NCBI RefSeq assembly: GCF_030680395.1
Contig: NZ_JAUXVR010000027.1
Coordinates: forward strand, 62,001-126,000
Length of the DNA: 64,000 bases
Direction: 5' to 3'
From: Methylobacter sp.
Lineage (GTDB): Bacteria > Pseudomonadota > Gammaproteobacteria > Methylococcales > Methylomonadaceae
Shown here: piece after piece, positions 4,849 through 21,870 of the stretch
Numbering within the stretch: position 1 is the first letter of the stretch
Layout: each line of letters begins with the position of its first letter
Translations under genes and position numbers: made by a program
The notes under the pieces: model-generated
The model's database searches: none
What the model saw: only the letters and a program-made list of their open reading frames with translations
What the model was told of the DNA's origin: nothing

Positions 4849-5707
4849 GCCTGATCCAGTCTTCCTGTTGCACCGGCGCGTTGAACGCTATGTGTTGCTG
4901 ATAAGCGTTCATCACCGCCTCGGCCTGTTCATGCAAAATGCCGGACAAAACCAGTTGACCAGTGGGAGCGACGAGGTTACAAATCTGTTCCGCCATGTCG
5001 ATTAAAGGCTTTGCCAGTATGTTGGCCAGCACGATGTCCGCCTGAAACGGCGTAAATTGCTCGGGCAGATAGCAGGCAATTTTATCTTGCACCTTGTTTT
5101 TTAGCGCGTTGCTCTGCGTTGCGGTGATTGCTTGCGGATCAATATCCACCGCATGAGCTTCCTTGGCATCTAGCAATATCGCCGCAACGGCCAGTATTCC
5201 GGAGCCGCAGCCGTAATCGATGACGGTTTTGCCGGTCAAGTCGTGGCTCGCCAGCCATTCCAGGCATAACGCGGTGGTCGGATGAGTGCCGGTGCCGAAA
5301 GCAAGGCCCGGATCGAGGGTCAGGCAAACCGTGCCGGACTCGTACTGTTCCTGATCGGTCGGACAAACCCAGAGTTTGTCGGCAAACTTCATCGGTTTAT
5401 AAAATTCCATCCAGGCGCGTTCCCATTCCTGGTCGGCAACTTCTTCATATTTCCAGTTGCGCAATTGCTCTGCTTTAAACTGGGCGTAAACCAGCGTCTT
5501 GATCAGCTCGGGTTCGGCATCCAATTCATAAAGTGCAATGACTTCGGTGTTGCTCCATATTTTGGTTTCGCCGATAGCCGGTTCGTAAACTGGCTCGTCT
5601 TCAGCGTCCATATAAGTAACGGACACGGCACCGAGATTGTCGAAAAAGTCGGCAAGCCGGGGGGCGATGTCTTCATTGGTTATAACGGTAATTTGGTGCC
5701 AGGCCAT
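4829..5707 (-). CDS. prmA: Ribosomal protein L11 methyltransferase
   Basis: PrmA trimethylates lysines and the N-terminus of ribosomal protein L11. The 292-residue product has the N-terminal substrate-recognition domain and then the SAM-binding domain, with the family motifs FGTGTHPTTALCLEWL, VIDYGCGSGILAVAA, AVDIDPQA and ADIVLANILAKPL (the NILA motif). Length matches E. coli PrmA (293). It follows accC after a 187-bp repeat-filled gap, the classical accBC-prmA neighbourhood. Confidence 0.96.
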   Translation of the reverse strand: MAWHQITVITNEDIAPRLADFFDNLGAVSVTYMDAEDEPVYEPAIGETKIWSNTEVIALYELDAEPELIKTLVYAQFKAEQLRNWKYEEVADQEWERAWMEFYKPMKFADKLWVCPTDQEQYESGTVCLTLDPGLAFGTGTHPTTALCLEWLASHDLTGKTVIDYGCGSGILAVAAILLDAKEAHAVDIDPQAITATQSNALKNKVQDKIACYLPEQFTPFQADIVLANILAKPLIDMAEQICNLVAPTGQLVLSGILHEQAEAVMNAYQQHIAFNAPVQQEDWIRLDGIKR

Positions 5708-5748
5708 GATTTGGAAATGTATGTGTAGGAGCGGATGATGGGTTAGTT

Positions 5749-5892
5749 ATTCACCACGAAGGCACGAAGGACACGAAGTTTTAGAATTGCGTAGGGTACG
5801 TACAGCGTGCTCTACGCGACTGCATGGAGCAATTACGATAGCTCAACGTATAAACTTAAAATCTTCGTGCTCTTCGTGCCTTCGTGGTGAAT
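5749..5892. repeat. Large inverted repeat of the CCACGAAGGCACGAAGG type
   Basis: The left arm (5749-5778, ATTCACCACGAAGGCACGAA onward) and the right arm (5873-5892) are near-perfect inverted copies. They enclose ~95 bp that include a degenerate GTAGGGTACG...CTCTAC palindrome related to those at 51.1 and 51.4 kb. It lies between accC and prmA on the minus strand. This CACGAAGG motif is a common dispersed bacterial repeat (established knowledge). A structural or transcript-stability role is possible. Confidence 0.75.
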
Positions 5893-5894
5893 TT

Positions 5895-7238
5895 TTAATA
5901 AATGCCCAGCTTTTTTTCCAGGTAATGGATGTTTTGTCCGCCGACTGCGAAGGCACTGTCATTCATGATGTCGTGCTGTAGCGGGATATTGGTTTTAATG
6001 CCGTCGATGATGATTTCACTTAATGCGGTGTTCATACGGGCAATGGCGCTCTTGCGGTCTTCGCCATGGGCAATCAGTTTGCCGATCATGGAGTCGTAAT
6101 AAGGCGGCACTTTATAGCCGTTGTAGATATGGGTCTCGCAACGGATACCGGGGCCGCCGGGCATATGAAACTGGTCTATGGTGCCGGGGCAGGGCATGAA
6201 GGTTCTGGGGTCTTCAGCATTTAACCGGCACTCAATGGCGTGGCCCTGAATTTTAACCTGATCCTGAGTAATAGACAGCCGTTCACCGGCTGCAATGCGC
6301 AGTTGCTCCTTGACGATGTCAAAACCGGTCACCATTTCGGTGACGGGGTGCTCAACCTGTACCCGGGTGTTCATTTCAATGAAATAGAACTCGCCTTTTT
6401 CATACAAAAACTCGAAAGTGCCGGCGCCCAAATAACCGATGTCGACACAGGCTTTGGCGCAACGTTCACCGATAGTTTTACGTTGCGCTTCGGTGATGCC
6501 CGGTGCCGGGGCTTCTTCAACCACTTTTTGATGGCGGCGCTGCATGGAGCAGTCGCGTTCACCTAAATGTATGGCGTTACCATGCGAATCGGCCATAATC
6601 TGAAACTCGATGTGCCGTGGGTCTTCCAGGAACTTTTCCATGTACACAGTAGGGTTGCCGAAAGCAGTACCCGCCTCGGCTTTGGTCATGGCGATGGCGT
6701 TTAATAACGCCGCTTCGGTATGTACCGTACGCATGCCTCTTCCGCCGCCGCCGCCGGCAGCCTTGATGATAACCGGATAGCCGATTTCATGGGCCAGTCT
6801 CAGGTTCTTTTTACTGTCATCCGACAAGGGGTCGTTGTTGCCGGGAACGCAAGGAATTCCGGCCTCCAGCATGGCCTTCTTGGCGGAAATCTTGTCACCC
6901 ATCATGCGGATGGTTTCCGCATTCGGGCCGATAAAAACAAAGCCGCTTTGTTTTACCTTTTCGGAAAAATCGGCATTTTCAGACAAGAAGCCGTAACCGG
7001 GATGAATGGCTTCCGCATCGGTCACTTCGGCGGCGCTGATAATGGCCGGAATATTCAAGTAGCTGTCGGCAGATGCGGCAGGGCCGATACAAACGGATTC
7101 ATCGGCAAGACGTACGTGTTTTAGATCCCGATCCGCCTCGGAATGCACGGCAACCACCTTGACACCCAGTTCCCGGCAGGCACGTAAAATGCGCAGAGCT
7201 ATTTCGCCGCGATTGGCGATAACGATTTTATCGAACAT
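5895..7238 (-). CDS. accC: Acetyl-CoA carboxylase, biotin carboxylase subunit
   Basis: AccC carboxylates the biotin on AccB using ATP and bicarbonate, the first step of fatty acid synthesis. The 447-residue protein starts [20 protein letters not shown] at the ATG at 7238, after a GGGGAAC ribosome site. It has the ATP-grasp features [41 protein letters not shown] and [18 protein letters not shown] longer reading frame extends 24 codons upstream into accB but is not needed. The length equals E. coli AccC within two residues. It is co-transcribed with accB (19-bp spacing). Confidence 0.97.
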
Positions 7239-7257
7239 GAGTTCCCCGTTCCTTGTG

Positions 7258-7695
7258 TTATTCAATGATGAATAATGGCTGGCCATATTCGACAGGTTCG
7301 GCGTTTTCAACCAGAATTTTGGTGATGGTTCCGCTTTTATCCGACTCGATCTGATTAAGGATTTTCATTGCCTCAATGATGCATAATGTATCGCCGACCT
7401 GAACGGATTGGCCTACTTCGGCGAAAACCTTGGTGCCGGGTGAAGCGGAGCGATAAAAGGTGCCGACCATCGGCGACTTGACCACATGACCGGTAATTTT
7501 TTCCTCCGCAGGCACAGCTGCCGAAGCGGCTATGGCAGGAGCGGCGGCAACCGTTGCAGGCGCATAGGCGACAGCAGCGGGAGCGGCAGAATAACGGCTA
7601 ATGCGAATGGATTCTTCGCCCTCTTTGATTTCAAGTTCGGCAATGCCTGATTCCTCGATAATTTCGATGAGTTTTTTTATTTTTCTAATATCCAT
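7258..7695 (-). CDS. accB: Biotin carboxyl carrier protein of acetyl-CoA carboxylase
   Basis: This is the 145-residue carrier that moves CO2 between AccC and the carboxyltransferase AccAD. The N-terminus ([20 protein letters not shown]) is typical. An alanine/proline-rich linker spans roughly residues 33-63, and the C-terminal biotinyl domain contains [12 protein letters not shown] and EAMKILNQI, in which the lysine is the biotin attachment site. It lies 3 bp after aroQ and 19 bp before accC. Confidence 0.97.
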
Positions 7696-7698
7696 AGT

Positions 7699-8145
7699 TT
7701 AGTGTCTCTCGGCTAATATCTGATGAGCGGCCAGTAAGGCCAATTCGTACCCTGTTGCGCCTAATCCGCAGATAACGCCTTTGGCAATATCCGAGAAATA
7801 GGAATGTTTTCTAAAAGGTTCACGTGCATGAACGTTTGATAAATGAACTTCAATAAAGGGGATCTTGGTTGCCAGCAGCGCGTCGCGAATGGCGACGCTG
7901 GTATGGGTAAAGGCTGCCGGATTCATGATGATGAAATCAACGTGGGCATGATAGGCCGCGTGTATTAATTCTACAATCTGGTGTTCTGCGTTGTTTTGAT
8001 GGAAGTTAAGCTGATGCCCCAGTTCCACAGACTTTTGCTCCAGATGCTGCCTAATGTCCGCGAGAGTTTGATTGCCGTAAAGACCGGGTTCGCGAATGCC
8101 CAACAGGTTTAAATTCGGCCCATTTAGAACGGTAATAGTCGCCAT
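7699..8145 (-). CDS. aroQ: Type II 3-dehydroquinate dehydratase
   Basis: AroQ performs the third step of the shikimate pathway. The 148-residue product shows the type II signature [19 protein letters not shown] (the tyrosine is the catalytic base region), [40 protein letters not shown] and [11 protein letters not shown]. The ATG at 8145 is used; a TTG directly upstream is also in frame. The aroQ-accB-accC order is classic in Gammaproteobacteria, where dsbD usually lies upstream. Here a ~10-kb island separates them. Confidence 0.97.
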
Positions 8146-8172
8146 CAATCTGCAAGTCGGTTAGGGTTTAAA

Positions 8173-8200
8173 AGCATAATTAGCCGCTAATTTTGCCCAA
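8173..8200 (-). promoter_or_regulatory. Candidate sigma-70 promoter of aroQ-accB-accC
   Basis: On the minus strand a TTGGGC element (8195-8200) and TATGCT (8173-8178) are separated by 16 bp, about 28 bp ahead of the aroQ start. Because the defence island now separates aroQ from dsbD-tlpA, the essential accBC genes need a local promoter, and this is the best match seen. It is a pattern match only. Confidence 0.35.
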
Positions 8201-8340
8201 TTTGTAAGGTTTTGTCCAGATATTCTATTTTTAGCAAAAGATAGCGACACAATTCAGGCTGTTTGGAGTCATTGCGCACAAGTCAGCGGATTTTGAAAGT
8301 TATTTGTGCGAGGGTTGTTTATTTCAATAACGGCCTGATT

Positions 8341-8429
8341 TAAACCGGTGATGTTAGTTTAGCAACGGATTAATAATTTCCGTTATTTGCTCTTTGGAAA
8401 ACTCCCCGGGATGCCGGTGTAGGATTTGC
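8341..8429 (-). pseudogene. Orphan, diverged copy of the tlpA 3' end (island boundary)
   Basis: These 89 bp match 18249-18338, the end of intact tlpA plus 14 bp past its stop, with 11 mismatches and one gap, including 37 identical bases in a row. The reading frame is preserved: on the minus strand it encodes HRHPGEFSKEQITEII and then NPLLN and a TAA at 8354-8356, against SRHPGEFSKEQITEII and TPLLN in tlpA. Similarity stops just right of 8429, so only the tail is present. It marks the left edge of the restriction island, and was probably the original junction between tlpA and aroQ. Confidence 0.85.
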
Positions 8430-8712
8430 GCTAGCTCTTACGCGCTACGGCTTTCTCCTCAACGTAGCGTATTGAAACTGCATTACCACGCGGCGCGTGG
8501 GAACGAGAAAAGCAGAATACGACCTCTGGCAAGCCAGACAAAAACCACGCCCCAACATTAAACTAGCTGAATACCTCATGCCGCCTAACAGCGCATCAAG
8601 ACCCCATGACCAAACCGTTATCGAATTAATATGGAAGATTCCAGTTTTGCAGGCGAGTATCTATCTGTAAAACAGCGACCAATTTTTACTTTCAGTATCG
8701 ATTTTTATCAGT
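8430..8712. other. Gene-free island edge: palindromic repeat plus a possible gene remnant
   Basis: At 8486-8500 is a CCACGC-GGC-GCGTGG palindrome followed by GAACGAG, resembling a dispersed repeat seen in many genomes. From about 8513 to 8671 the plus strand has an open stretch of ~53 codons without a start of its own (it reads KAEYDLWQARQKPRPN, then KLAEYLMPPNSASRP) that ends in TAA. It looks like the tail of a lost gene, but I cannot identify it. No promoter, tRNA or integrase remnant is visible. Confidence 0.45.
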
Positions 8713-9795
8713 CTATGTGCCATTTATCATAAATAATCCCGATTGATAACAAGCTTCTAAAAACGGTTTTTTCAGAAAATTAAAATCTGCATACGGAGAA
8801 ATACTTTCAAGCTCTGCAAGTTCTACAAAATACTCTTCTGCTTTTCCTCCTCTCCTGACCCAACTTTGTGCTTGTGTAATCCAGTATTTGCCAGCGTTTT
8901 TTTTACACATCAAAGCCTTGTAACGGTCTTCGATACTGTAGACATCAAACCATGTTTTAATTTCGTTATCATACTGCGTGGGTCCAACGGATATCGTTAT
9001 TTCCCCAGGTTTATATTCATTCCAGTTTCTTGGGCTAAATGTTATTTCAAATTCCAGTTTGTATGGGGTATGAGTGAAAGGATAAAAAGCTTTACGAGTC
9101 GCCCCATTAACATTGATTGGATCTTTGGCACCCTTGTTTTTAGAATTGCAAGTATTACAGGCAGGCGGTAGGTTTTTAAAATTAATAGAGTTAAATGGAT
9201 ATTTACTCTTAGGCAAATAATGATCATACGCATCACGAGTTGGGTCAAACTGACCATCCATCGGCATGATTCCGCAAAATGGGCATATGTCTTCATCGTT
9301 CTGCTGAACAAATTTTAAATAATGATCTGATACTGTTCCTATATGGTTTTTAATGGTTTCTAACGCCAAAAAATTATGGGAATATAAATTCTTAAAGAAT
9401 TCTTCAAGTTCCTCGGTCAACTTTTCAAATTTGACAGTAAGCTGATCATACCGAATAGGCGCTATAGCAGCATCGTTGCAACAGCATTTTTCAATATCAT
9501 TATTAGACGCATACCAAGCTTTAAACTGAGCAATATCCGGTGGCTCAAGTTCTTTAAATGCATTAAATATTTTATTGAGTCCAGTCAAGAAAAACACAGC
9601 ACTTTTTTTAGGTTTTCCAGCCAACTCATAATCCCATAAATATTCCACTATGCCTTTCAAATCAGAATTTTCTTCAAATAATTCAATACCATATTCAGAA
9701 TTCGGTGCCTTACACCATACCTCATTAAAAATGAAGTCTACATACTCCTGCATTTTCTCAATTGGATGAGATACATATTTGTATGGGAAAAGCAT
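8713..9795 (-). CDS. HNH endonuclease, PtuB-like, last gene of the restriction island
   Basis: The 360-residue protein has a helical N-terminal part and an HNH/zinc module: CPFCG (residues 171-175), then YDHYLPKSKYPF with the first HNH histidine, then NFKNLPPACNTCNSKNKG (second zinc cysteine pair near 213-216). This resembles HNH effectors that act with an ABC/SMC-type ATPase, such as PtuB of Septu. The start codon overlaps the ATPase stop by one base (TAATG), so the two are made together. A DNA- or tRNA-cutting role in phage defence is inferred from family and context. The N-terminal ~165 residues are not recognised. Confidence 0.85.
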   Translation of the reverse strand: MLFPYKYVSHPIEKMQEYVDFIFNEVWCKAPNSEYGIELFEENSDLKGIVEYLWDYELAGKPKKSAVFFLTGLNKIFNAFKELEPPDIAQFKAWYASNNDIEKCCCNDAAIAPIRYDQLTVKFEKLTEELEEFFKNLYSHNFLALETIKNHIGTVSDHYLKFVQQNDEDICPFCGIMPMDGQFDPTRDAYDHYLPKSKYPFNSINFKNLPPACNTCNSKNKGAKDPINVNGATRKAFYPFTHTPYKLEFEITFSPRNWNEYKPGEITISVGPTQYDNEIKTWFDVYSIEDRYKALMCKKNAGKYWITQAQSWVRRGGKAEEYFVELAELESISPYADFNFLKKPFLEACYQSGLFMINGT

Positions 9796-11555
9796 TAAAC
9801 ATCTTCCTTATTTCTGCCGTCTAGGATGGTACGAATCAACAGCATTTTTTCAACAGAATCGCCCAATTGTTTATTGATTTCCTTGATCAGTGCGTTTTTG
9901 TCTTCTCCTGCTTCAAATCGTCGTTGCATTTCATGCAATTTATCCTCTGCATATCCCCCAATAGTTGAAGATTTATTAAATGTCAGCATGGTAATCTGAT
10001 CGACGGAAGCACCGAGCGTATTGTAGTCTGGGCGCTTAACATCAACGATACCGTCCTCTTTGGTAAACACCAGCACCTGTTCCGGCTTGCTGTCGGAAAT
10101 CAAAAACGGCGTATGGGTGGTAATAAGCATTTCGCGTTGAACGTTCTTTTCATCCAATTTGGAATCCATAGGCTTAAAACAATCACGCAAGCGGGAGATA
10201 AACTTGGAACGCCAATCGGGGTTAAAGTGGGTTTCCGGCTCGTCCAACAGAAATAGGCTGTTGGAATTTTTAAACAGCAAGCAAAGACCCAGGCTATGTA
10301 AAAATTGATGCTCGCCGTCGGAAAGGTCTTTCAGCATGACGGCATTGGGCACATCGGTCTTGTTAAACTTCACAAATTTAAAGCGCATAATGCGTTCATC
10401 GGAAGGCAAAGTGGGGATGGTTTCATTCGCATATAAGCTATCAGATCTGTAAAGGTCTTTTTTTAAGCTGTCGCTTACGGAATACAAGTTTAGTGTCAAC
10501 AAAATACGAAATGACTGAAACAAATCGATGGCTGATTCGAAGTTGTTTTTAAAGGCTTCCCTGGTCGCATCATTAACCAAATAGTCCAAATATAGGCAAC
10601 CTGTTTCATCATCTTGAAAATAACTGGTTGCGCAGCGTCGCAAGCGGTTAATAACCGGCTCAAAAGTGAACTCTGAATCCGGTTCTGATTCAAACTTTTT
10701 CAGTATGGGTAAAAAGTAGCTTTTGACTTCTGTCTCAGTTTCCTCAACTATCAAAAAATCTTCTGGATAAAGGTTGGCTTGCTCGGCAGAAATTTCAATA
10801 CGGTTTTTTAGAATGATACGAAATTCTTGCAAGGTTCCAATGCCTACATCCTGCTTAAAAGGCGCAAGTGTTTCATCGTCTTCAAACAACAAATTACACA
10901 GCAAAATAGCCTGACTAAAAGCATTATCCAAATAGATTTGCCTGGATTCCGGACTGCCTGCATAGGGCAAGTCCTGCTTAAGCGTATCCAGATATTCATC
11001 CAGTTGGATAAAACGCATTTTAAAAAAAGGCAGGCTAAGAATTTCGTTCTCACCGGAGGAATAAGCCAAGACGAAATCCGGCAACATTTCCACTGCGTCG
11101 ATACGCGATAGCGGCTTTTCTTCGCCAAACCCTGGATGATTGATCCAAAATAGTTGCGCACCGCTATCAGGTGTTTTAACGATCTTTATATGAGCCGTTA
11201 AATCTGCCCCACCTTCCTGAAGTCTTTCCGGTGTAGGAATCAAATACTCCAATTCAAAGGCGTTGGGTTGTGCGTATTCTTCTTTAAAGCCTTGGGGATT
11301 AGTCTCTTCGTCAAAAGCAAAGGTTTCTGGCCGGTAAGTCAGGTGCTGACATTCAATGTGATAAAAAATCGCTGCCAGCACTTCTAAAACATTGGATTTG
11401 CCGCTGCCATTAGGGCCAGCAAGAATATAAGGTGCAAACTCCCTATCACTGACATCGGCGCTTTCTGAACGATCCCACTCGCGCAGAAAATGTAACTCAA
11501 AACCGGCTTGCAGGCTACGAAACGGCTCGTTGAGTTTCAGCCGCAGCAGCTTCAT
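9795..11555 (-). CDS. Restriction-associated AAA/ABC-type ATPase, PtuA-like
   Basis: This 586-residue protein has the split ATPase of the SMC/ABC superfamily: Walker A AGPNGSGKSNVLEVL (about residues 46-60), signature LSDGEHQFLHSLGL, Walker B NSLFLLDEPETHFNPDW and the H-loop region ITTHTPFLISD. Such ATPases sit next to type I restriction genes and also form the sensor half of Septu-like systems with an HNH nuclease. Its ATG overlaps the hsdS stop (ATGA) and its stop overlaps the HNH start. It therefore probably senses something and licenses the HNH protein, or modulates the Hsd complex. Both are inference. Confidence 0.87.
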   Translation of the reverse strand: MKLLRLKLNEPFRSLQAGFELHFLREWDRSESADVSDREFAPYILAGPNGSGKSNVLEVLAAIFYHIECQHLTYRPETFAFDEETNPQGFKEEYAQPNAFELEYLIPTPERLQEGGADLTAHIKIVKTPDSGAQLFWINHPGFGEEKPLSRIDAVEMLPDFVLAYSSGENEILSLPFFKMRFIQLDEYLDTLKQDLPYAGSPESRQIYLDNAFSQAILLCNLLFEDDETLAPFKQDVGIGTLQEFRIILKNRIEISAEQANLYPEDFLIVEETETEVKSYFLPILKKFESEPDSEFTFEPVINRLRRCATSYFQDDETGCLYLDYLVNDATREAFKNNFESAIDLFQSFRILLTLNLYSVSDSLKKDLYRSDSLYANETIPTLPSDERIMRFKFVKFNKTDVPNAVMLKDLSDGEHQFLHSLGLCLLFKNSNSLFLLDEPETHFNPDWRSKFISRLRDCFKPMDSKLDEKNVQREMLITTHTPFLISDSKPEQVLVFTKEDGIVDVKRPDYNTLGASVDQITMLTFNKSSTIGGYAEDKLHEMQRRFEAGEDKNALIKEINKQLGDSVEKMLLIRTILDGRNKEDV

Positions 11556-13696
11556 TGCTCCAATCCATTTTCAACTAAAGCGAACCGAAGTGATTTTTGT
11601 TTTTCGTCGAAAACTTGCGTCACCAGATTCCCCGCCAATAAGTCGAAAAGAATGTCCTTGATTGTTTCATATTCGGCAAAATCGACCGTTTCCAATTCGC
11701 CAAGCTGCTGCATTAAACTCTCGAATGACAGTGGTTCACCTGCATTGTCCAGAATATCTATAACATCCTCATGATGAAATTGCAGCTTGGTATAAACTGC
11801 CTCATTATCGAGATACATTCCCCATGGATTGCTGGCGAGTCTTTGCAAAGAGGTGAAATCTGGAATGGGGCTTTGTAGCCATTTGGTAGCTTCTAAGTAT
11901 TGAGTGTATATGCTAGATGCACTTGCTCGTTCCACAGCGTTACGCATATTCCCAAAAGGATCAGTCATTTTTCTGAGCGCTTCGCTGTATTGATCAGACA
12001 ATCCAATGTTAGATATTGGGATAGCAGTTGTATGACCAAGAGCCGATTCCATTTTTTTTGCAATAGAATTAATTCGATCGTAATTTAATGATTCGATCTT
12101 TGCCATGGTTGAATGCATAGCCTCAAAAGGCGCAGCAACGTATTTCAACACATCATTGTGTTGTTCAAGCCAGCCCATGTCTATCTTGGGTATTGCGGAA
12201 GCGATGTTACGAGCTAATTCGACACTTTTGGAGATAGAATCAAATTGGCTGAGGTTTAATGGCTTGATTGTTGACTCGAACTGTTCCATGGCCGAGGTAA
12301 TGCTCGACATATTCTTCAGTTGTTCCATAGGAGAATGATAGGCGGCAAGTTGTGCCGCAGCTTGTTTGACCGATTCGAATTGTGCCGGATTCAATGATGA
12401 AACCCGCGCGGCTCTCTCAACGGCTTTAAAGCTAGTTGCGCTTTGATTAAATGCATTTAGGGCTGTCAGAGTAGTACTGATGTTCTCGGGTACAACCCCT
12501 TCAACAGTGGCAACGACTTCATCTTGATCATTTTCGAGGTCTGCGAGTGTTTTGTGGTTCAATGGAATGCGAGATAAATCCAGTTCGCCTTTGAAGGCTT
12601 TTTGACTGAGTGCGCTGTAAAGATTTTCCAGTTCGGTGAGGTTTTGCTGGTAGTGGTTTTTTAGAGATTCTACTTTTTCGACAATGACAGCGAATTTTTC
12701 CTGCAATGGAATAGGTGGAGCAGGAACTTCTAGATTTCTAAGAATTTCAAGGTTGATATTTCTTTGAGCCGCTTGAGGGGCATTTTTTTCCAATATTCTT
12801 TGAAAAAAGCCAAATAGAAAATGAATATAGAGGATATGAGATTCTTTAGGATTAGCTATAAATCCAACTACGCTATCAGGAAAACACGCATCAAAAGTGA
12901 GAATACTGGTCTGTGCAATGTTTGCCGCAATAGTTATACAGAGTGTGCCAGCAGGCCAAATTTTGCTCTGTTTGAATCCAATTTCAGAGTAAGTATTTTT
13001 ATATTCAGTAATGTAAGTCCCAGCATTTGAAACCTCACCAGTTTGTAAGAGAGGATACTTTCCCCCAAGAAGTTCTGGGGCATTGCGAGGCCTATGTTTC
13101 GATACACCTCTGTTAATTGAACCTAGAATTTGAAGAGGTTTCTTTTCCCACGATCCGTCATTTCGCACAGGATCACCAAACATCTCCAAAAACGTGCTTT
13201 TCAGAAATTCATCCAGCTGATGCAGGTTGTCTTTGCGAGTAGCAATGAGCATCTCGACGCGACTGAGTAATGTGGCGATGCGGATTTGGTCGTCAAGAGC
13301 TGGATTTTCATCTTTATATGGAATCGGAATTTTTAATTCCTTCAGAAACTTAAAGTGCCTGCTATAACCTGCATCATTCAGCTTCACCGATTTCAGGTAC
13401 AAAAACACATAACGGCTGTTTGCGATTTCAGGGTTAATCCAAAGTGCTTTCGCTCCGTCCGCCCCTAATGCTATTGGAGTTTCTACGTATTTAAATACGC
13501 GAGTGTGATCACCAAAAATTATGACTGGTGATAGCTTTGCATTTACCAAATTCGCATTATCGGTATAGCCCGCAATATGTACTTTACCTTGGTCAATAAT
13601 CTGGAATAGCCCATTTTTTTGGTAATCGCTTTGTTTGATTTTTTTAAACTTCGAAGTTACATCTGTAATAACTTCGTTGAAGGGGATTTTTCTCAT
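11552..13696 (-). CDS. hsdS: Type I restriction specificity subunit HsdS with a long C-terminal extension
   Basis: Residues 1 to about 390 look like a complete HsdS: TRD1, first conserved helix region (DDQIRIATLLSRVEMLIATR), TRD2, and second conserved region (PLQEKFAVIVEKVESLKNHY, then ALSQKAFKGEL). Most HsdS proteins end here, near 400-450 residues; this one has 714. The extra ~320 residues are helical, rich in Ser/Ala/Asn/Gln, with loose repeats such as SLNPAQFESVKQAA, PLNLSQFDSISKSVELA and SLNYDRINSIAKKM. They close with a winged-helix-like segment near residues 645-705 (DILDNAGEPLSFESLMQQLG). HsdS chooses the DNA target of the HsdM/HsdR complex. The extension is not recognised. ATGA overlaps join it to hsdM upstream and the ATPase downstream. 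Confidence 0.9.
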   Translation of the reverse strand: MRKIPFNEVITDVTSKFKKIKQSDYQKNGLFQIIDQGKVHIAGYTDNANLVNAKLSPVIIFGDHTRVFKYVETPIALGADGAKALWINPEIANSRYVFLYLKSVKLNDAGYSRHFKFLKELKIPIPYKDENPALDDQIRIATLLSRVEMLIATRKDNLHQLDEFLKSTFLEMFGDPVRNDGSWEKKPLQILGSINRGVSKHRPRNAPELLGGKYPLLQTGEVSNAGTYITEYKNTYSEIGFKQSKIWPAGTLCITIAANIAQTSILTFDACFPDSVVGFIANPKESHILYIHFLFGFFQRILEKNAPQAAQRNINLEILRNLEVPAPPIPLQEKFAVIVEKVESLKNHYQQNLTELENLYSALSQKAFKGELDLSRIPLNHKTLADLENDQDEVVATVEGVVPENISTTLTALNAFNQSATSFKAVERAARVSSLNPAQFESVKQAAAQLAAYHSPMEQLKNMSSITSAMEQFESTIKPLNLSQFDSISKSVELARNIASAIPKIDMGWLEQHNDVLKYVAAPFEAMHSTMAKIESLNYDRINSIAKKMESALGHTTAIPISNIGLSDQYSEALRKMTDPFGNMRNAVERASASSIYTQYLEATKWLQSPIPDFTSLQRLASNPWGMYLDNEAVYTKLQFHHEDVIDILDNAGEPLSFESLMQQLGELETVDFAEYETIKDILFDLLAGNLVTQVFDEKQKSLRFALVENGLEQ

Positions 13697-15378
13697 CCCA
13701 CCATCTCCTTCAACGCCAACAACTCCTTCACAATCCCCCCCTGAATCTGGCTTAGCGCCTGCACATCAAAATCCTCACCCACTTCGCTGACCAGCAATTT
13801 CTGCAAAATCGCTTCCGGTTTTTCATAGTGAATTTCTTCAAACACATCTTCTTTATAGCGGCTTAAGCTGAGGTCGTAATTTTCATCGACAATTTCCTTT
13901 CGTGGCACACTAAAGAATTTTTGGGTGCGCTCGGACTCTTGTGCCGTCAAACGGCTGTGGTATTTTTCGACGATGTCCTGTAAATCGCCGTAGCCTTCCT
14001 GCTTATTGCGTTTATCATCCAGTGTATAGCCATCGCTTTGCATCTCATAAAACCAGACCTGTTGCGTGGCAGGTTCATCGACTTTGTCTTGCGAGTCGTA
14101 GACCTTGGTGAATAACAAAATGGCGGTGCTGACACCGGCATAGGGTTTAAACACGCCGCTGGGTAGCGTAATCACGGTTTTTAAATCACAACGATCCACC
14201 AAAATTTTACGCGCTGCAACAAAGGCTTTGCCGGAACCGAACAGCACACCCTGCGGAACAATCACCCCGGCGGTGCCGCCTTTTTTCAGCAGGCGGTAGA
14301 TGTTTTCGATAAACAACAGCTCGGTTTTGGTGGTGCCAAGGCTTAGGTTCTCGTTGATGTCGCCTTTGTCGATGCTGCCGGTAAAGGGAGGGTTCGCCAT
14401 GATGATGTCGTAGTAACTGGCTTCATCAAAGCTTTTACTGAGCGTGTCTTTATAATCGATATGCGGCTCGTCGATGCCATGCATCATCAAGTTCATCAAA
14501 CCTAAGCGCACCATGGTGCTGTCGATGTCATACCCCCACAAACTCTCATTGAGGATGCTTTTGGCGGTTTCGGTCAGGCTGGCGCTGACCGAGGTACGTT
14601 TAAAGCCGTCTTCGTCGGTTTGCAGTTGTGCCGCGCTACTGTCGTTATTTTTAGCGGTTTTTATCGCTAACTGGGTGACGATGTATTGATAAGCGCCCAG
14701 TAGGAAACCAGCCGAACCGCAGGCCGGGTCCGCTATACGGTGGCCCAGTTGCGGCTGCACCAATTCGGCAATGAGTTTGATGATGTGGCGTGGCGTACGA
14801 AACTGGCCGTTTTTACCGGCGGAGGCAATTTCAGAAAGTAGGTATTCGTAAACATCGCCCTGTATATCCTGAAACGCCTGACCTTTTTCTGCGGAATCTT
14901 TTTCTATCTCGTCATACATTTCATCGATGGTTTTAACCGCTTCCACCAATAACGAAGGTTTGGGGATAATGAACACCGCGTTTTTCATGTGGTGGGTGAA
15001 GCTGGACGCCTGACCGTTTAAATCTTTTAAGAACGGGAAGACTTTTGTTTGCACATGGCTCAGCATGTTATCAGCCGACATGCGTTTGAATTCGCTCCAG
15101 CGCAAGCTGTGTTTATCAACTGCAAAGGATTTCTGATCGTCTATTGTTTTGTCGCGATGCTCAGGCGGAATCCAGCTTCCGGCAAAACGCGATGTAAATT
15201 TATCTCCGGTAAATTCGGCATCGGCCTGTTGCTTTAAATCCAGGTCATCCAGACGTTTCATAAACAGCAAATAGGTGATTTGCTCGATGGCGGTCAGCGG
15301 ATTGGAAATGCCGCCGCTCCAGAATTTGTTCCAAAGTTGGTCGATTTTACTTTTCAGGGCTGGGTTATTTTGTAGCAT
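13693..15378 (-). CDS. hsdM: Type I restriction-modification DNA methyltransferase subunit
   Basis: HsdM methylates adenine in the sequence chosen by HsdS and protects the host chromosome. The 561-residue product has the N-terminal helical domain (IDQLWNKFWSGG, then ITYLLFMKRLDDL), the SAM motif IADPACGSAGFLLGAYQYI and the catalytic N6-adenine motif DIIMANPPFTGSID. It also has TELLFIENIYRLLKKGGTAG and the C-terminal DENYDLSLSRYK. It overlaps hsdS by four bases and follows hsdR after 43 bp. Confidence 0.95.
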   Translation of the reverse strand: MLQNNPALKSKIDQLWNKFWSGGISNPLTAIEQITYLLFMKRLDDLDLKQQADAEFTGDKFTSRFAGSWIPPEHRDKTIDDQKSFAVDKHSLRWSEFKRMSADNMLSHVQTKVFPFLKDLNGQASSFTHHMKNAVFIIPKPSLLVEAVKTIDEMYDEIEKDSAEKGQAFQDIQGDVYEYLLSEIASAGKNGQFRTPRHIIKLIAELVQPQLGHRIADPACGSAGFLLGAYQYIVTQLAIKTAKNNDSSAAQLQTDEDGFKRTSVSASLTETAKSILNESLWGYDIDSTMVRLGLMNLMMHGIDEPHIDYKDTLSKSFDEASYYDIIMANPPFTGSIDKGDINENLSLGTTKTELLFIENIYRLLKKGGTAGVIVPQGVLFGSGKAFVAARKILVDRCDLKTVITLPSGVFKPYAGVSTAILLFTKVYDSQDKVDEPATQQVWFYEMQSDGYTLDDKRNKQEGYGDLQDIVEKYHSRLTAQESERTQKFFSVPRKEIVDENYDLSLSRYKEDVFEEIHYEKPEAILQKLLVSEVGEDFDVQALSQIQGGIVKELLALKEMVG

Positions 15379-15421
15379 TTATTTTTCTCTTATCTTTGTT
15401 GTGCGTGGCTTGCTTTTAATC

Positions 15422-18238
15422 TTAAGCCGCTAATCGTTCGGTTAATTCTAAAATCTCATTAATTTCAGCGGGGCTGAATACGCCACGTATGCCTTGGGGA
15501 TGAATCACTGTGAACGGTGATTGGATAAGGTCGCGTTTTTCGACTTTTTCACGTTCAATGATGAAGTTCTTTAACAGACATAAAAACTCCAGCTGACGGC
15601 TGTTGAGGTGGGTATGCTCGGCAATAAACTGATCGAAGGTTTTGCTGACGGTATCAGGGAAGCTGGTAAGTATTTCGATACCGAGTATATGCCGAATAAA
15701 CTGGATAAACCGTGCTTTTCGGTTTCTATAGACGTTGCGAAGTAAGTCTTCGGTAATATGCGGATGTTTTTCGTTGAGCAACTTGGCTAACATTTCCGCT
15801 TCAAAATCTGATATGTCAGCGCCCTCTTTTATCTTCTGGAGTATCGGGTTGTTGTTGGTGAGTTCAGTTATTAGTTCCTCGACCATTTCCCTGTAGCGAG
15901 TGATACTAACTGCCTCATTTTGCGGACCGAACTCCACTTTTTCTTTGTTGTGCAGGACATCAGTGAGGTCGAGTTTTACCGGGCCTGCACCGGGATTTTG
16001 CAGCTCGCGGAATTTCATCAGTGGACCGAGTTTTTCCGCCAGCTCGTCCAGTGTGGCATCTGTGCAGTTTGACCAATAATAATGTTGTTGGGCGCTTTTA
16101 ATCAGGTTTTCTTCGCGGGCCACCATAGGCACGGTTAGAGGCAGCTCGCTGATTTGTTCAACCAAGCCGTCTTTTAACGTTTCAAATTGGTCTTTTTCTT
16201 CTGTTGACCAAATTTCTTTGCTTAATAAGACCAGTGAAATTTCCAGTACATCTTTGCTAAAACGCATGGCCTTAAAATCAGCCTGCGATATTGTTCTAAA
16301 AAGAGGTTTGATTTCAACGCGCAGAAATTCGATTTTCTGCGCGTTGAGTTTGCTCCAGTAGTTATCATCGGCAATCTGATTCAGTGCTGAAGCTGCTTCG
16401 ATGATGACTACGGAGTTTTTCGGAAGTTCTTGAATTTGCAGGCGCAGGATGGTGCTTTCTTTGACGGCGATGTCCTTACAACCTAACTCCAGCGCTTTTT
16501 CGATTTTATCCAGTCGAATACCCACCAAACGCACCGGCAAAGGCAGTTGCGGCTTAAGCTCTTTGCCTTTGGGTTGTAGTTTGAAGTATTCAAAGTTGTC
16601 CCAACAGTCGAGAATCAGAAAAACGTCTTTCTCGGTACACCAAGGTTTGATTTTTTTAGGTTCGAGTAAACGCGTGCCGCGACCGATCATCTGCCAGAAT
16701 TTGGTGTAGGAATAAATCGGTTTGGCAAAAACGAGGTTGACGATTTCACGCACGTCGATACCTGTGTCGAGCATATCCACGCTGATAGCGATGCGCGGCA
16801 TGTCATTATTGGTGAACTGGTCGAGTAGCCCACCTTTACCATAAACCCTTGGATCATCGGAGACTAATACCTTGGCAAGTTCACCATGATAATGAGGGTA
16901 GAGTTTGTCGAAAATTTCTTCGATACGGCGAGCGTGGGCTATGGAAGCGCAGAAGAAGATGGTTTTACCCGGTAATACGCCATTGCCGTCTTTAATGGAT
17001 TCCTCCATAAATTCTTTAACGATAAGGGTATTGGTGCCTTTGTTGATGACCTGTTTTTCCAGCTGGGTTCCTTCAAAGTTAATTTCTTCGACATCTTTAC
17101 CTTCAAGGATAAGTTTTTTCTGATCTTCCAAACTAATGGTGCGCTTGCTGATGCCTTCCATCTGGAATTTGGTTTGAATTTTCATCACCTGAAAATTGCA
17201 TAGATACGGCGGGTGGTTATTAACCGCTTCCTCGTAGGTATAGGCAAAGGTGGGCAGGCCATCTTCGCAGGTGAACAATTTGAACGTGTTGTGGTCTAAC
17301 ACGTCCGTCGGCGTCGCCGTCAGGCCCAGATTAATGGCCTTGAAATAATCGAGAATTTCGCCGTAGGTGTTGTAGATGGAGCGGTGACTTTCATCGATGA
17401 CAATCAAATCGAAAAAATGCGGCGATAAGCTGCCGGATTCGTCGCGAATAATGTTGAGCATGGTTGGGTAGGTAGAGATGTAGATTCGCCTGTCTTTGGC
17501 AATCAGCTTTTCTCCTACCTTGGGCCAGCGCGGTTCGTTGGGCAGATATTCTTTAAATGCGGCTAATCCCTGTTCGCGCAGGGGGATACGGTCGACTAAA
17601 AACAATACCCGCTCGACATGACTAGCGCGCATCAGCGCATCGACCAATGCAATGCAGGTACGGGTTTTACCTGTGCCGGTAGCCATGACCAATAAAAAGT
17701 CACGCTGTTTGCGCTCAATCGCTTCCAGCACAGCGCGGATAGCCCGGATTTGATAATCGCGCCCTGCGATTTCGGTGTTGATGAGTTCTTCTGTAAGTGA
17801 TTTCTTATTTCGCCGAATATAGCTAAAACGCTCCAGGTCATCAAGGGTAGGGAAGCCAACGATCTTGCGAGGCGGGCCATTTTCCAGATCCCAGAAATAG
17901 ATTTCCAATCCATTTGTGTAAAAGCAGAAAGGCAGTTCGCTACCTTTGTCTTTTTGCATGTTGTAGCAGTATTGTTTGGCTTGTTCACGGCCTAAGGCTG
18001 CGTCTTTGCTGGTTTTTTTTGCTTCTACCACTGCAAGAGGTTTAGCATCTTTACCAAGCAGCACATAGTCACTGAACTGGTGGCCTTGGTAAGGTGTTTG
18101 CGGTTCAGATATATCTGGATGCAAACCTACATTTATATCGAACTCCAGTATGACTTGGGTTGGATCGTTGATCTTCCAGCCTGCGGACTCAAGCGCTTTG
18201 TCGATGATGTTTTTTCTGGTTTGCTGTTCCGTACTCAT
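15422..18238 (-). CDS. hsdR: Type I restriction endonuclease subunit HsdR (EcoEI/EcoKI-like)
   Basis: HsdR is the DNA-translocating and cutting subunit. The 938-residue protein has the N-terminal nuclease motif (FSDYVLLGKDAKPLAVVEAK, a D...ExK pattern), then SF2 helicase motifs LVMATGTGKTRTCIALVDAL, VIDESHRSIY, NLGLTATP and QMIGRGTRLLEP. A C-terminal EcoEI R-type helical domain follows (ILGIEILTSFP and HLNSRQLEFLCLLKNFI). The start at 18238 lies only 24 bp after the tlpA stop and has no clear ribosome site, so expression may depend on read-through from cutA-dsbD-tlpA or an unseen promoter. All motifs look intact. Confidence 0.95.
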   Translation of the reverse strand: MSTEQQTRKNIIDKALESAGWKINDPTQVILEFDINVGLHPDISEPQTPYQGHQFSDYVLLGKDAKPLAVVEAKKTSKDAALGREQAKQYCYNMQKDKGSELPFCFYTNGLEIYFWDLENGPPRKIVGFPTLDDLERFSYIRRNKKSLTEELINTEIAGRDYQIRAIRAVLEAIERKQRDFLLVMATGTGKTRTCIALVDALMRASHVERVLFLVDRIPLREQGLAAFKEYLPNEPRWPKVGEKLIAKDRRIYISTYPTMLNIIRDESGSLSPHFFDLIVIDESHRSIYNTYGEILDYFKAINLGLTATPTDVLDHNTFKLFTCEDGLPTFAYTYEEAVNNHPPYLCNFQVMKIQTKFQMEGISKRTISLEDQKKLILEGKDVEEINFEGTQLEKQVINKGTNTLIVKEFMEESIKDGNGVLPGKTIFFCASIAHARRIEEIFDKLYPHYHGELAKVLVSDDPRVYGKGGLLDQFTNNDMPRIAISVDMLDTGIDVREIVNLVFAKPIYSYTKFWQMIGRGTRLLEPKKIKPWCTEKDVFLILDCWDNFEYFKLQPKGKELKPQLPLPVRLVGIRLDKIEKALELGCKDIAVKESTILRLQIQELPKNSVVIIEAASALNQIADDNYWSKLNAQKIEFLRVEIKPLFRTISQADFKAMRFSKDVLEISLVLLSKEIWSTEEKDQFETLKDGLVEQISELPLTVPMVAREENLIKSAQQHYYWSNCTDATLDELAEKLGPLMKFRELQNPGAGPVKLDLTDVLHNKEKVEFGPQNEAVSITRYREMVEELITELTNNNPILQKIKEGADISDFEAEMLAKLLNEKHPHITEDLLRNVYRNRKARFIQFIRHILGIEILTSFPDTVSKTFDQFIAEHTHLNSRQLEFLCLLKNFIIEREKVEKRDLIQSPFTVIHPQGIRGVFSPAEINEILELTERLAA

Positions 18239-18262
18239 TTTTTAACTTTAAGCCGGTGATGT

Positions 18263-18778
18263 TTAGTTTAATAAGGGAGTAATAATTTCCGTTATTTGCT
18301 CTTTGGAAAACTCCCCCGGATGTCGACTTATGATTTGCCCTTGCCGGTCAACAATGAGGGTGTAGGGAACCGCATCGACGCTATTGCCCAGTTGATGAGC
18401 CAAGGCGATGCCATTATCGCTGCCCAATAGAATCGGATAATTGATGTTGGTTGCGGCGGCGTACTTGGCAACCGGCTCCCTGTCCTCCAAAGCGACGCCG
18501 ATAAACTGTACGCCTTGGTCGGCATATTGTTCCTGCAAGGCGATAAAGCCGGGGATTTCTTTAAGACAGGGCGGGCACCATGTCGCCCAGAAATTGATCA
18601 CTAATATTTTGTCCCGCCATTCGGAAATGTTGTGCTGATGGCCGGACAGGTCAGGCAGGTTGAACTCGGGTAAAGCGCTAATGCCGGTTTTCTCAGCAGA
18701 TGGAAAAAGATGCCGGGTGGTTACGCCAAGAGCCAAGGCAATAATCGCGGTAATAATAATCAGGCCTGTCTGTTTCAT
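18263..18778 (-). CDS. TlpA/ResA-type membrane-anchored thioredoxin-like protein
   Basis: This 171-residue protein has an N-terminal membrane anchor (LIIITAIIALALGVTTRHLF, residues 5-24) and a thioredoxin fold with the active site FWATWCPPCLKEIPGF. The proteins act in the periplasm as thiol reductants in cytochrome c maturation or copper-site assembly, supplied with electrons by DsbD-type transporters. The start overlaps the dsbD stop (ATGA), which supports that partnership. Its last ~75 coding bases plus the bases just after the stop recur at 8341-8429, so the defence island lies between the two copies. Confidence 0.9.
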   Translation of the reverse strand: MKQTGLIIITAIIALALGVTTRHLFPSAEKTGISALPEFNLPDLSGHQHNISEWRDKILVINFWATWCPPCLKEIPGFIALQEQYADQGVQFIGVALEDREPVAKYAAATNINYPILLGSDNGIALAHQLGNSVDAVPYTLIVDRQGQIISRHPGEFSKEQITEIITPLLN

Positions 18779-21006
18779 GATGGGGTGCGCGGCAGCGATT
18801 TAATAAAGGTTTCGATATCCTGATAACCGATGACTCGGTTGGCGATTTTTTCCTGATGATCCAAACCGAAAAACAAAATGGCCGGAGGCCCGATCAGGTT
18901 GAATTTAGTCAACAGCGCCTTATCGTCATCCGAATTATTAGTGACATCAACTTGTAGCAGTACATAGCCTTTGAGCGCCTGTTTTACGCGCGGGTCTGCA
19001 AAGGTATAAGTTTCCATTTCCTTGCACGAGATGCACCAGTCGGCGTAAAAATCCAGCAGCACCGGTTGATGATTGGCGGCGGCCTGCTTGATTCGGGCTT
19101 CCAGCGTCGCTATTGAGGAGACTCGTTCAAAAACGATCCCCGGCTCTGCGGCTTGAGCAGTACTCAAGCCGAGTCCTTGCAGCGGCTTTAACGGATTGCT
19201 GTTGCCCAGGCTGAAACCAATCAATAATAACAGGCCGTAAGCCAGCATCATCAAGCCTAGGCCTTTCCACAGCTTGCGCCAACCGGAACTGTTTTCGGGC
19301 AGCGGATCGACGGCGCTGAGGTAAATGGCCGGAAATATCAGCAGCATCGCCCACAGCATCATGATCACGTTGCCCGGTAAAATCCGGCTGAGCATCCATA
19401 CCGCAACTGCCAGCATAATCACGCCGAATACCGCTTTGGTGGAATTAAGCCAGTTTCCGGCCTTGGGTAACAGTTTTCCGGCGGAGGCACCCAGCAATAG
19501 TAACGGTACGCCCATGCCCAGGCCCAACGCAAATAAGGCGCTGCCGCCTAACACCGCGTCGCCGGTCTGGCCGATATAAATCAGCGCACCCGCCAGCGGC
19601 GCGGCGACACAGGGGCCGACGATCAGTGAGGATAACGAGCCCATGATAGCGGCGCCCCAAAGCGAACCGTCGCGGTGTATTTCGCTGGAATTATGCAGCT
19701 TGACCTGTAACGATTTGGGCAGTTCCAGATGATAAAAGCCGAACATGGACAAGGACAGCAGCACAAAAATAGCGCTGAACAGGCCGATAATCCAAGGCTG
19801 CTGAAAAGTGGTTTGCAAGTTGCTGCCGAACAACGCGGCAAGTATGCCGAACACCGTGTAGGTCAGTGCTGAGGCGACGACATAACTGAGCGACAGTAAA
19901 AAGGCTCGGGTGGTGGTGATCCGGTTGCCATGTCCGACGATAATGCCCGATAAAATCGGAATCATCGGAAAAATGCACGGGGTCAGCGATAACAACAAGC
20001 CGAACCCGAAAAAGCTGAGCAAGGTTATCGGCAAGCTGTCCTTGCGCAAGGACTGCACGATTTGATCCTGTTCGGAAAGTTCCTGCGCGGCTCGTTGCTG
20101 TGCTATTGGCAAGGCCAGGTCGATTTTTTTGCTCATCGGCGGATAGCAAACGCCGCGGTCGGCGCAACCCTGGTATTTGGCCAGCAGGGTAATGGTTTGC
20201 GCTGCTTGGCTGGAACGGATAAGAGGCAGGTCAAAGTCGAGTTCGTTGTGGAACGTCTCAACCTGACCAAAGGCTTCATCCTGTTTAGGCGTACCTCTGG
20301 GAATGTCATAAGTCCCAAGCTTTACGCCGTCGGCGTTAATCAATTCAAATTGAACTTTTTCCCGGTAAAGGTAATAACCGTCTGCAATATGCCAGTTAAC
20401 ATGCAGGGAATGATCATCTTTGACCGACGCAAAAAACTCGAAAGCCTGATCCGGCGGCAGCAGTTCATAACGGGCCAATCCGCTCCTGGCGGATTGGTCA
20501 TCTTCAAACAAGTTAAGTTTTAAGCTTTGAGCGCCTTTTATCAGTTGCTTGACCGGGTCGACGTTGACAACAGGCGTGGGTAGCTTGAGATCGAAAGTGG
20601 TTTTCTGAGGCGGATAGCAAATACCCTGATCGGCACAGCCTTGATATTGCACCGACAGTTGCAGGGACGATGCGCCGTTTTCAATGGTTAAGCCAACCGG
20701 GATGTTCAGGGCGTTGCGGTAAATAACCACATCGCCAAAGTTGTCGTCATGCTTGGTTTGGCCGGTCGGAAAACCGGGTTCGCCTAACCGGATTTGCCCG
20801 GTTTTGGACTCAAAATGCATTTTATTGCGGTAAAGATAATAACCTTCGGCTATATCCCAGGAAATTTCAATCCGATCGGCAGCAAGCGCTTTTGCCGAAA
20901 CCTTAAAGGCCTGGTTAGGCGGCAGAACTTCGTCAGCGCCCAGCGCAAAGGCTGATTGGCTGACAAGCGACAGGAAGCAGAGAACAATTATTTTAAAGAG
21001 TGGCAT
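18775..21006 (-). CDS. dsbD: Thiol:disulfide interchange protein DsbD with duplicated N-terminal domain
   Basis: DsbD carries electrons from cytoplasmic thioredoxin across the inner membrane to periplasmic thiol proteins. The 743-residue product (E. coli has 565) has a signal peptide and two tandem alpha domains, each ending in the redox pair (YQGCADQGICYPP, then YQGCADRGVCYPP). An eight-helix membrane domain follows, with its two cysteines in SLTPCIFPMIP and VGPCVAAPLAGAL. The C-terminal thioredoxin-like gamma domain has FYADWCISCKEME. The extra alpha domain explains the length. The ATG at 21006 is used; a TTG four codons upstream is also possible. It overlaps cutA by 19 bp and tlpA by four. 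Confidence 0.95.
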   Translation of the reverse strand: MPLFKIIVLCFLSLVSQSAFALGADEVLPPNQAFKVSAKALAADRIEISWDIAEGYYLYRNKMHFESKTGQIRLGEPGFPTGQTKHDDNFGDVVIYRNALNIPVGLTIENGASSLQLSVQYQGCADQGICYPPQKTTFDLKLPTPVVNVDPVKQLIKGAQSLKLNLFEDDQSARSGLARYELLPPDQAFEFFASVKDDHSLHVNWHIADGYYLYREKVQFELINADGVKLGTYDIPRGTPKQDEAFGQVETFHNELDFDLPLIRSSQAAQTITLLAKYQGCADRGVCYPPMSKKIDLALPIAQQRAAQELSEQDQIVQSLRKDSLPITLLSFFGFGLLLSLTPCIFPMIPILSGIIVGHGNRITTTRAFLLSLSYVVASALTYTVFGILAALFGSNLQTTFQQPWIIGLFSAIFVLLSLSMFGFYHLELPKSLQVKLHNSSEIHRDGSLWGAAIMGSLSSLIVGPCVAAPLAGALIYIGQTGDAVLGGSALFALGLGMGVPLLLLGASAGKLLPKAGNWLNSTKAVFGVIMLAVAVWMLSRILPGNVIMMLWAMLLIFPAIYLSAVDPLPENSSGWRKLWKGLGLMMLAYGLLLLIGFSLGNSNPLKPLQGLGLSTAQAAEPGIVFERVSSIATLEARIKQAAANHQPVLLDFYADWCISCKEMETYTFADPRVKQALKGYVLLQVDVTNNSDDDKALLTKFNLIGPPAILFFGLDHQEKIANRVIGYQDIETFIKSLPRTPS

Positions 21007-21326
21007 GAATCTATCCAATTCAGGTATTCAGGTAAGCCCCGCTCAATGGGGATGGCAATTATTTCAGGCAGTTCGTAAGGATGATGATTGCGCAGGGTGG
21101 TTTCAATAGCCTGATAGCGATCTTTATGCGCCTTGATCAGCAGTAGATGTTCTTGGGCAGATTCAATTTGTTCCTTCCATGTGTAAATAGAGGTCATGCC
21201 GGGTAAAATATTTACACAGGCGGCCTCGTTATTTGCGACCAGCAGTCGGGCAATTTTTTCCGCCGTGTCTTTATCAGGGCAAGTGCAGAAGATTATTTGA
21301 TGGTTAGCAGGCATGTTACAGGTCAT
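20988..21326 (-). CDS. cutA: Divalent-cation tolerance protein CutA
   Basis: This 112-residue protein is a clear CutA1 homologue (IIFCTCPDKDTAEKIARLLV, ACVNILPGMTSIYTWK, HPYELPEIIAIPI). CutA forms stable trimers with a signalling-protein-like fold and is linked to copper tolerance, though its molecular role is unsettled. The cutA-dsbD order is the same as in E. coli. An internal ATG four codons in (21314) is an alternative start. The short gap to fxsA (88 bp, opposite strand) must hold both promoters. Confidence 0.94.
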   Translation of the reverse strand: MTCNMPANHQIIFCTCPDKDTAEKIARLLVANNEAACVNILPGMTSIYTWKEQIESAQEHLLLIKAHKDRYQAIETTLRNHHPYELPEIIAIPIERGLPEYLNWIDSCHSLK

Positions 21327-21414
21327 AAAAACTGGAGCGTCAGATATTATCCTAGAAATTAACCGGAATTGCCCTTATATTGTAATAACGATGATTACAA
21401 TAAGAGTACTTTAG

Positions 21415-21852
21415 ATGAAAATTTTTCAAACACTATTTCTGGTCGTTCTGATTATTCCTTTTGCAGAAATTTATTTGTTGATACAGGTGGGAGCAATTAT
21501 CGGTGCATTTCCGACCATTTTGCTGGTGGTGTTTACTGCGATGCTGGGCGCTTGGCTATTGAAACAGCAAGGCTTTGCAACATTTCAGCGGTTTCAGGAG
21601 AGTTTGGCGCAAGGAGTGATTCCCGCTTATGAAATGGTAGAAGGGCCTCTTATTCTGGTAGGGGGAGCTTTATTGCTAACACCGGGTTTTATTACGGATA
21701 TAATTGGCTTTGCCTGTTTAATTCCACAATTACGCAGAAAAATTGCTCAATATGTGATTGAACATTATCTTGTACAGGCTGGAGCGCACTTTCAGCAGGC
21801 AAAAGCGGCTGAAAATAATGTGTTGGAAGGTGAATTTCGTAAAGAAGAGTAG
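21415..21852 (+). CDS. fxsA: FxsA family membrane protein
   Basis: The 145-residue protein has the FxsA pattern: an N-terminal helix (TLFLVVLIIPFAEIYLLIQV), a second hydrophobic span (TILLVVFTAMLGAWLLKQQG) and a third with the conserved GGALLLTPGFITDIIGFACL. In E. coli, FxsA (YjeG) affects phage T7 exclusion by plasmid F. The cellular role is otherwise unknown. It is divergent from cutA-dsbD, close to the E. coli neighbourhood of fxsA. Confidence 0.9.
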   Translation: MKIFQTLFLVVLIIPFAEIYLLIQVGAIIGAFPTILLVVFTAMLGAWLLKQQGFATFQRFQESLAQGVIPAYEMVEGPLILVGGALLLTPGFITDIIGFACLIPQLRRKIAQYVIEHYLVQAGAHFQQAKAAENNVLEGEFRKEE

Positions 21853-21870
21853 GAAGATGAGAAATTTAAG

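Follow-up and report, generated by a model that had tools for sequence, protein, structure and literature searches.

A Methylobacter type I restriction island flanked by duplicate tlpA 3' ends, possibly a relic integrative element

Elements that integrate into the 3' end of a housekeeping gene and are bounded by direct repeats leave that gene whole, and CIMEs (cis-mobilizable elements) have lost their integration and transfer genes and kept attL and attR (both in the part of PMC5704250 covered here). In the same part of that source, SGI1 and MGIVch are integrated at the 3' ends of protein genes (trmE and yicC), MGIVchMoz6 is listed with a restriction-modification (R-M) system, and all IMEs are stated to encode integrases. 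Among defence systems, PtuAB pairs an ABC-type ATPase with an HNH protein; PtuAB of retron-Eco7 and of one Septu depletes or cleaves tRNA-Tyr, PtuAB in another Septu was reported to act on DNA, and no tRNA loss was seen with retron-Eco4 (parts of PMC11555353 and PMC13096335). PrrC, an accessory ATPase-bearing effector that accompanies a type I R-M operon, is activated upon inhibition of EcoPrrI (part of PMC12707154).

Here we describe a locus in a window of 64,000 nucleotides from a Methylobacter sp. genome (G000), which was compared with an island-free sister genome (G019) and with another Methylobacter that carries the same island (G021). As in a CIME or decayed IME, the island is bounded by direct repeats, a housekeeping gene regains its 3' end through one of them, and no integrase is left; it differs in that tlpA is absent from the targets in the part of the PMC5704250 table covered, its repeat is longer than the range of 8–60 bp given there for tyrosine recombinases, it holds no trace of integrase or transfer genes, and only one insertion event is known. 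With SGI1 and MGIVch it shares the position at the 3' end of a protein gene, and it differs from them in having no integrase. The features are collected in Table 1.

Table 1. Features of the island and its borders in the window.
Feature	Position	Strand	Evidence
Ancestral tlpA-aroQ intergenic DNA, retained upstream of aroQ	8149..8338		Alignment with G019 and G021
Tail copy (repeat 1), displaced original tlpA 3' end, beside aroQ	8339..8435	-	aroQ-side flank colinear with the G019 island-free junction
Inner left island end, no ORF of at least 80 aa; one copy of a dispersed REP-like repeat (~8476-8511)	8436..8712		ORF list, repeat search
HNH nuclease, 360 aa, PtuB-like only in HNH core	8713..9795	-	ORF list, PADLOC, alignment, AlphaFold model
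AAA/ABC ATPase, restriction system-associated (TIGR04435), PtuA-like	9795..11555	-	Pfam, PADLOC, NCBIfam, PDB chains
hsdS, long C-terminal extension after ~residue 381	11552..13696	-	Pfam, PADLOC, alignment
hsdM	13693..15378	-	Pfam, PADLOC
hsdR, start 24 nt past tlpA stop	15422..18238	-	Pfam, PADLOC
Repeat 2, 3' end of full tlpA gene	18247..18344	-	Repeat search and alignment
tlpA, intact ORF	18263..18778	-	ORF list, Pfam

All five island genes are open according to the ORF list and lie on the same strand, and the remaining listed island ORFs of at least 80 aa overlap them in other frames. A type I R-M system was recognised with Pfam (ResIII, EcoEI_R_C and HSDR_N; HsdM_N and N6_Mtase; Methylase_S), and the operon hsdR-hsdM-hsdS-AAA-HNH was found exactly between the repeat copies, as in the original prediction. 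The absence of integrase and tRNA, also predicted, held: the window contains neither tRNA nor tmRNA, and Pfam identified no recombinase or transposase among the five genes, the HNH protein having no Pfam match of any kind. No RNA family was found at 8000-8900. Short matches to the REP-like repeat occur at 36 further places in the genome, almost all of them at query positions 45-82, and its copies often form inverted pairs ~100 bp apart. Inverted repeat arms of 34 nt (91% complementary) were seen between prmA and accC at window 5749-5892.

The repeat spans ~92-97 bp, comprising the last ~25 codons of tlpA, the stop and 15-16 nt past it; it covers coding and non-coding DNA, and the tlpA ORF is restored by it. 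This duplication had been predicted, and its edges proved 2-6 nt wider than proposed. The predicted 11 mismatches, one gap and run of 37 identical bases agree with the alignment of the tail and the full copy, where 12 of 92 columns differ (13%), one of them a gap, and 37 central columns are identical; the shared reading frame was likewise recovered, the tail reading open for 25 aa to the same stop as tlpA, with 84% identity over tlpA residues 147-171. The repeat was detected independently within the window (82 nt, 85% identity), and a search of the own genome (4.36 Mb) with the tlpA region returned two matches, tlpA and the tail (E 9.6e-25), a third copy being absent. As a chance control, 1000 random 97-mers of the window were searched for a same-strand second match at E<1e-3; 13 matched, of which 6 were pieces of the tlpA repeat itself. 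Unrelated direct repeats at window ~51116-51503 also surfaced in this control.

In G019 tlpA adjoins aroQ and the repeat is single, which bears out the proposed entry at the tlpA-aroQ junction. Window positions 4771-8435 were aligned to G019 1-3682 and positions 18247-30000 to G019 3586-15293; the two alignments share 97 bp of G019, which identifies the repeat as the scar of an insertion that added 9.8 kb at the junction, with direct repeats at both ends of the island and one copy in the empty site. As the aroQ-side flank is colinear with the intact junction of G019, the tail is the displaced original end of tlpA, left beside aroQ while tlpA itself is intact. Alignment of G021 with G019 gave edges at 3586 and 3679, and the island breakpoints in G021 and in the window agree within 3 bp.

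The aroQ regions of 33 related genomes were read up to 16.6 kb upstream of aroQ. The predicted adjacency of tlpA and aroQ in relatives was true of G019 and others (tlpA no more than 0.8 kb from aroQ in 15 of 33 regions, G019 included) and failed for 17, where the stretch read showed no tlpA close by, 3 of these having <1.5 kb to read; the remaining region, that of G021, has the same island. The L043 aroQ region gave a distant tlpA-like match only (32%). The adjacency is thus common, found in other genera too, yet not universal. By eye, aroQ has chemotaxis-like genes as neighbours in some genomes and unrelated genes in others, and chemotaxis-like genes at aroQ and/or tlpA replace the direct junction in L035, L039, L045 and L138 (several Methylobacter).

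No island-free relative among 23 genomes of the genus carried the extra tlpA tail, as the original prediction required; a second tlpA 3' end was present in two of the 23, both island carriers, in a search whose query was the window's own sequence, so that strongly diverged tails could escape it. When the regions upstream of aroQ were scanned with 30 tlpA ends (relatives and window), a tail beside aroQ together with a full copy was found only in the window and G021. We also considered tlpA as an insertion hotspot and rejected this, since in 14 genomes without tlpA seen beside aroQ no integrase-like ORF downstream of tlpA was obvious by eye and the only sign of a second tail was a 32-nt match of 81% in G016. 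In this set G012 and G026 gave no aroQ match, and G010 and G007 had <200 bp to read.

The island and its flanks were compared between G000 and G021 at four-fold sites. Identity was 0.86 for hsdR, 0.85 for HNH, 0.79 for AAA, 0.74 for hsdS and 0.66 for hsdM within the island, and 0.67 for accC, 0.69 for accB, 0.75 for prmA, 0.78 for aroQ, 0.80 for dsbD, 0.82 for tlpA and 0.93 for cutA in the flanks. As both are about equally diverged, the insertion is old, the island dating roughly from the split of the two species or from an exchange near that time, and a recent transfer between G000 and G021 is disfavoured by the same similarity. Four of the five genes of the G021 island match over full length and hsdS over residues 121-714 only, a limit set by the search filters. 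The hsdR proteins are 97% identical, a sign of constraint; HsdS differing most is usual for specificity subunits.

In an rpoB tree covering 20 of the 23 genus genomes the island-free G019 groups with G000 (99/99) and G021 falls outside (92/86); the island was therefore either lost in G019 or passed on laterally. Loss in G019 would need no more than recombination between the repeats; restoring the empty junction in this way would be a simple exit route. Of 61 genomes (the window's own and 60 from the same order) only G000 and G021 had the AAA gene at high identity. Close relatives of hsdR in two other genera (G031, 83%; G033, 78%) sit at other sites, with hsdM and hsdS and without AAA and HNH.

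We regard it as an even prospect that the island is what remains of an integrative element, with the tlpA 3' end as its site and its integrase missing. The geometry is that of integrative elements whose attachment site is the 3' end of a gene, with the gene intact and its 3' end repeated beyond the island; because the present island has no integrase (ORF list, Pfam), it is treated as decayed, immobile and CIME-like, and is not filed as an IME. From the repeat, the empty site, the second carrier with matching breakpoints and the similar divergence of island and flanks, we infer that the incoming DNA carried, beside hsdR, a copy of ~95 bp around the tlpA stop, and that a single crossover inside this stretch, presumably by a site-specific enzyme, would have brought the island in at the tlpA-aroQ junction. 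After the crossover tlpA would have been complete, with hsdR now directly downstream, and the old 3' end would have stayed beside aroQ together with aroQ's upstream DNA. Transcription of hsdR is probably from the dsbD-tlpA transcript, driven by the tlpA promoter; no sigma-70-like site was found at 18100-18900, against an average of 1.3 in shuffles, which is weak evidence. The missing integrase counts against an integrative element, and so does the length of the repeat, exceeding the tyrosine recombinase range in the part of PMC5704250 covered. No other element and no attP-bearing element was found at the tlpA site in the 23 genus genomes, the 14 tlpA regions and the phage, plasmid and viral records; the tail had no match in phage or plasmid records, and two exact-pattern scans of viral contigs for it found nothing. 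The scar shows a defence operon entering between two housekeeping genes with neither broken, and two carriers plus an empty site provide material for testing the insertion.

Because no integrase, second element or attP-like copy was found, homologous entry by one crossover is a close rival, which we consider possible and rather unlikely. It supposes RecA-type recombination of a circle, or of a linear fragment whose other end was joined illegitimately, with never a site-specific enzyme, the tlpA 3' end coming from a Methylobacter donor that already carried the island at tlpA. The missing integrase suits it, as does the resemblance of the 15-16 nt of non-coding DNA in the repeat to the clade's own junction. 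The flanks are moreover mosaic between species, nucleotide identity of prmA and accB being 0.95 and 0.94 between G000 and G019 and 0.88 and 0.86 between G000 and G021, and exchange between species is therefore likely. Such an entry, however, leaves the origin of the first island-tail linkage to be explained in the donor, and the agreement of both carriers' breakpoints speaks against it.

The copies themselves were compared with G019 over 92 columns. The original prediction had asked which copy matches the species' own tlpA; the comparison gave 13 differences for the tail and 11 for the full copy in G000, and 11 and 8 in G021, so that neither is clearly native or foreign, and assigning own and foreign copies by sequence was given up because neither is clearly closer to G019. 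The G021 tail and full copy differ at 5 of 92 columns, and the closest pairs, with 5 differences each, are the G000 tail with the G021 full copy and the two copies of G021. Near the stop (33 columns) the G000 tail has 5 and the full copy 9 differences from G019, and in the far part (22 columns) 6 and 0; the corresponding counts in G021 are 4 and 4 in both parts. G000 thus shows the reciprocal mosaic expected from one crossover and G021 does not. The predicted origin of the 13% difference in a diverged donor allele of tlpA was not supported: the island is old, the silent tail may have drifted so far, and age alone can account for the value.

A long target duplication, whether through template switching or a break staggered by ~97 bp, with later drift of two copies that are both the recipient's own, is improbable. 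Both copies do resemble the clade's sequence and neither an outgroup, and their divergence fits the age. Yet 97 bp far exceeds ordinary transposon target duplications, no inverted repeat of at least 20 nt joining the island ends was found, and the five genes include no transposase by Pfam, so the marks of a transposon (short duplication, transposase and, at 20 nt or more, terminal inverted repeats) are lacking. The DDE example in the part of PMC5704250 covered has 8 bp. Chance or gene-family similarity in place of an insertion scar is refuted, to near certainty, by the empty site in G019, and also by the whole-genome search and the random 97-mer control.

The cargo of the proposed relic element was then compared with known defence proteins. 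The AAA protein belongs to TIGR04435 (766 bits against a curated cut-off of 300, NCBIfam), a family whose name leaves out the HNH partner and the HsdS tail found here; neither its accession nor its name was found in the literature searched. The five-gene combination was not named in the titles and abstract openings searched, a coverage outside which most subscription journals fall. The HNH protein matched PADLOC PDC-M01B best (E 5.7e-15) and also PDC-M62B, and the ATPase matched PDC-M01A and PDC-M62A; these matches are partial, and a PtuA model fits the ATPase better (E 3.9e-49). Like PtuAB of Septu and retron-Eco7, the island encodes an ABC-type ATPase and HNH pair, and the ATPase matches PtuA models and solved PtuA chains. 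It differs in that the ATPase reaches 45 bits against the PtuA equivalog cut-off of 500, in that the HNH protein matches PADLOC PtuB over residues 168-226 only (E 4.6e-8), and, from retron-Eco7, in that the pair is linked to R-M and not to a reverse transcriptase. The AlphaFold model of the HNH protein (pLDDT 90) had no PDB match at E<=0.001, the best being E 2.0. The residues CxxC, DH, N and CxxCN are invariant in 29 aligned HNH sequences, as are the Walker A and signature residues in 26 aligned ATPases; these names are those we take the conserved positions to represent.

A scan with the AAA protein yielded 38 loci in many phyla, one of which (L176) is the G021 island. HNH follows AAA in 37 of them, the contig ending in the remaining one, and hsdM precedes AAA in 36. 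The gene hsdR was present in 28, and in 9 of the 10 loci lacking it the contig, as far as seen, stops less than 1 kb from the operon; in L212 there is no hsdR within reach. The five-gene order thus recurs across phyla, distant bacteria included. Both HsdM and this AAA protein were encoded in 2 of 72,556 plasmid records.

The C-terminal tail of HsdS, with a conserved end module (consensus about eYe.iK.wvFeaL..g.ltQ.yd...Nr), was found in 38 of 39 readable AAA-bearing loci (36 of 37 plus L269 and L270), the single tail-less one, L195, having an interrupted HsdS frame; the count excludes L201 and L210, where no HsdS is readable. None of the AAA-minus relatives L133, L134, L267 and L271 has the tail, four being few; L272 and L273 are outside these counts. 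A guard role for AAA-HNH is plausible because of the tRNA and DNA activities of PtuAB and the activation of PrrC on EcoPrrI inhibition, and what is seen here is the linkage and the HsdS tail. In gene content the island resembles PrrC/EcoPrrI (in the part of PMC12707154 covered), an ATPase-bearing accessory effector being joined to type I R-M genes in both, and differs in having two proteins, with an HNH nuclease replacing PrrC. We tentatively propose that the cargo may be one composite defence machine, and not R-M with a passenger, in which a dedicated tail gained by HsdS both tethers and restrains the AAA-HNH effector, which would fire when a phage inhibits or evades R-M. It would be a PrrC-like guard from PtuAB-like parts, distributed through many phyla, its five genes travelling together from one chromosomal site to another. 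The HsdS tail would connect an ATPase-HNH effector to type I restriction, a molecular link that can be tested.

Repeats flanking the cassette were surveyed in 26 of the 38 loci, of which 3 were too short and 23 were compared. Matches at E<1e-3 were obtained in five (L176, L182, L189 with 219 bp at 76%, L202 with 41 bp and L211 with 36 bp at 9e-4), against none of 92 mismatched flank pairs, a control that cannot mimic repeats shared within one genome. Of these five only L182 is convincing as an attachment site, and it parallels the island at tlpA: in this deltaproteobacterial MAG the same cassette follows a tmRNA, a classical integration site, and lies between 89-bp repeats of 85% identity. In L189 the cassette is downstream of smpB-tmRNA, and its weaker repeat does not adjoin the tmRNA.

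At positions 2009-2457 of L182 the tmRNA is followed by the 89-bp repeat with a hairpin and then T, and the far copy is at 16692-16780, 14 kb away. By eye, the L182 repeats bracket ubiquitin-related genes in addition to the R-M cassette, and no recombinase was recognised in its ORF list. In L184 (Oceanobacter kriegii) a tRNA-Val at 3495-3571 lies ~400 nt upstream of the hsdR of the same cassette.
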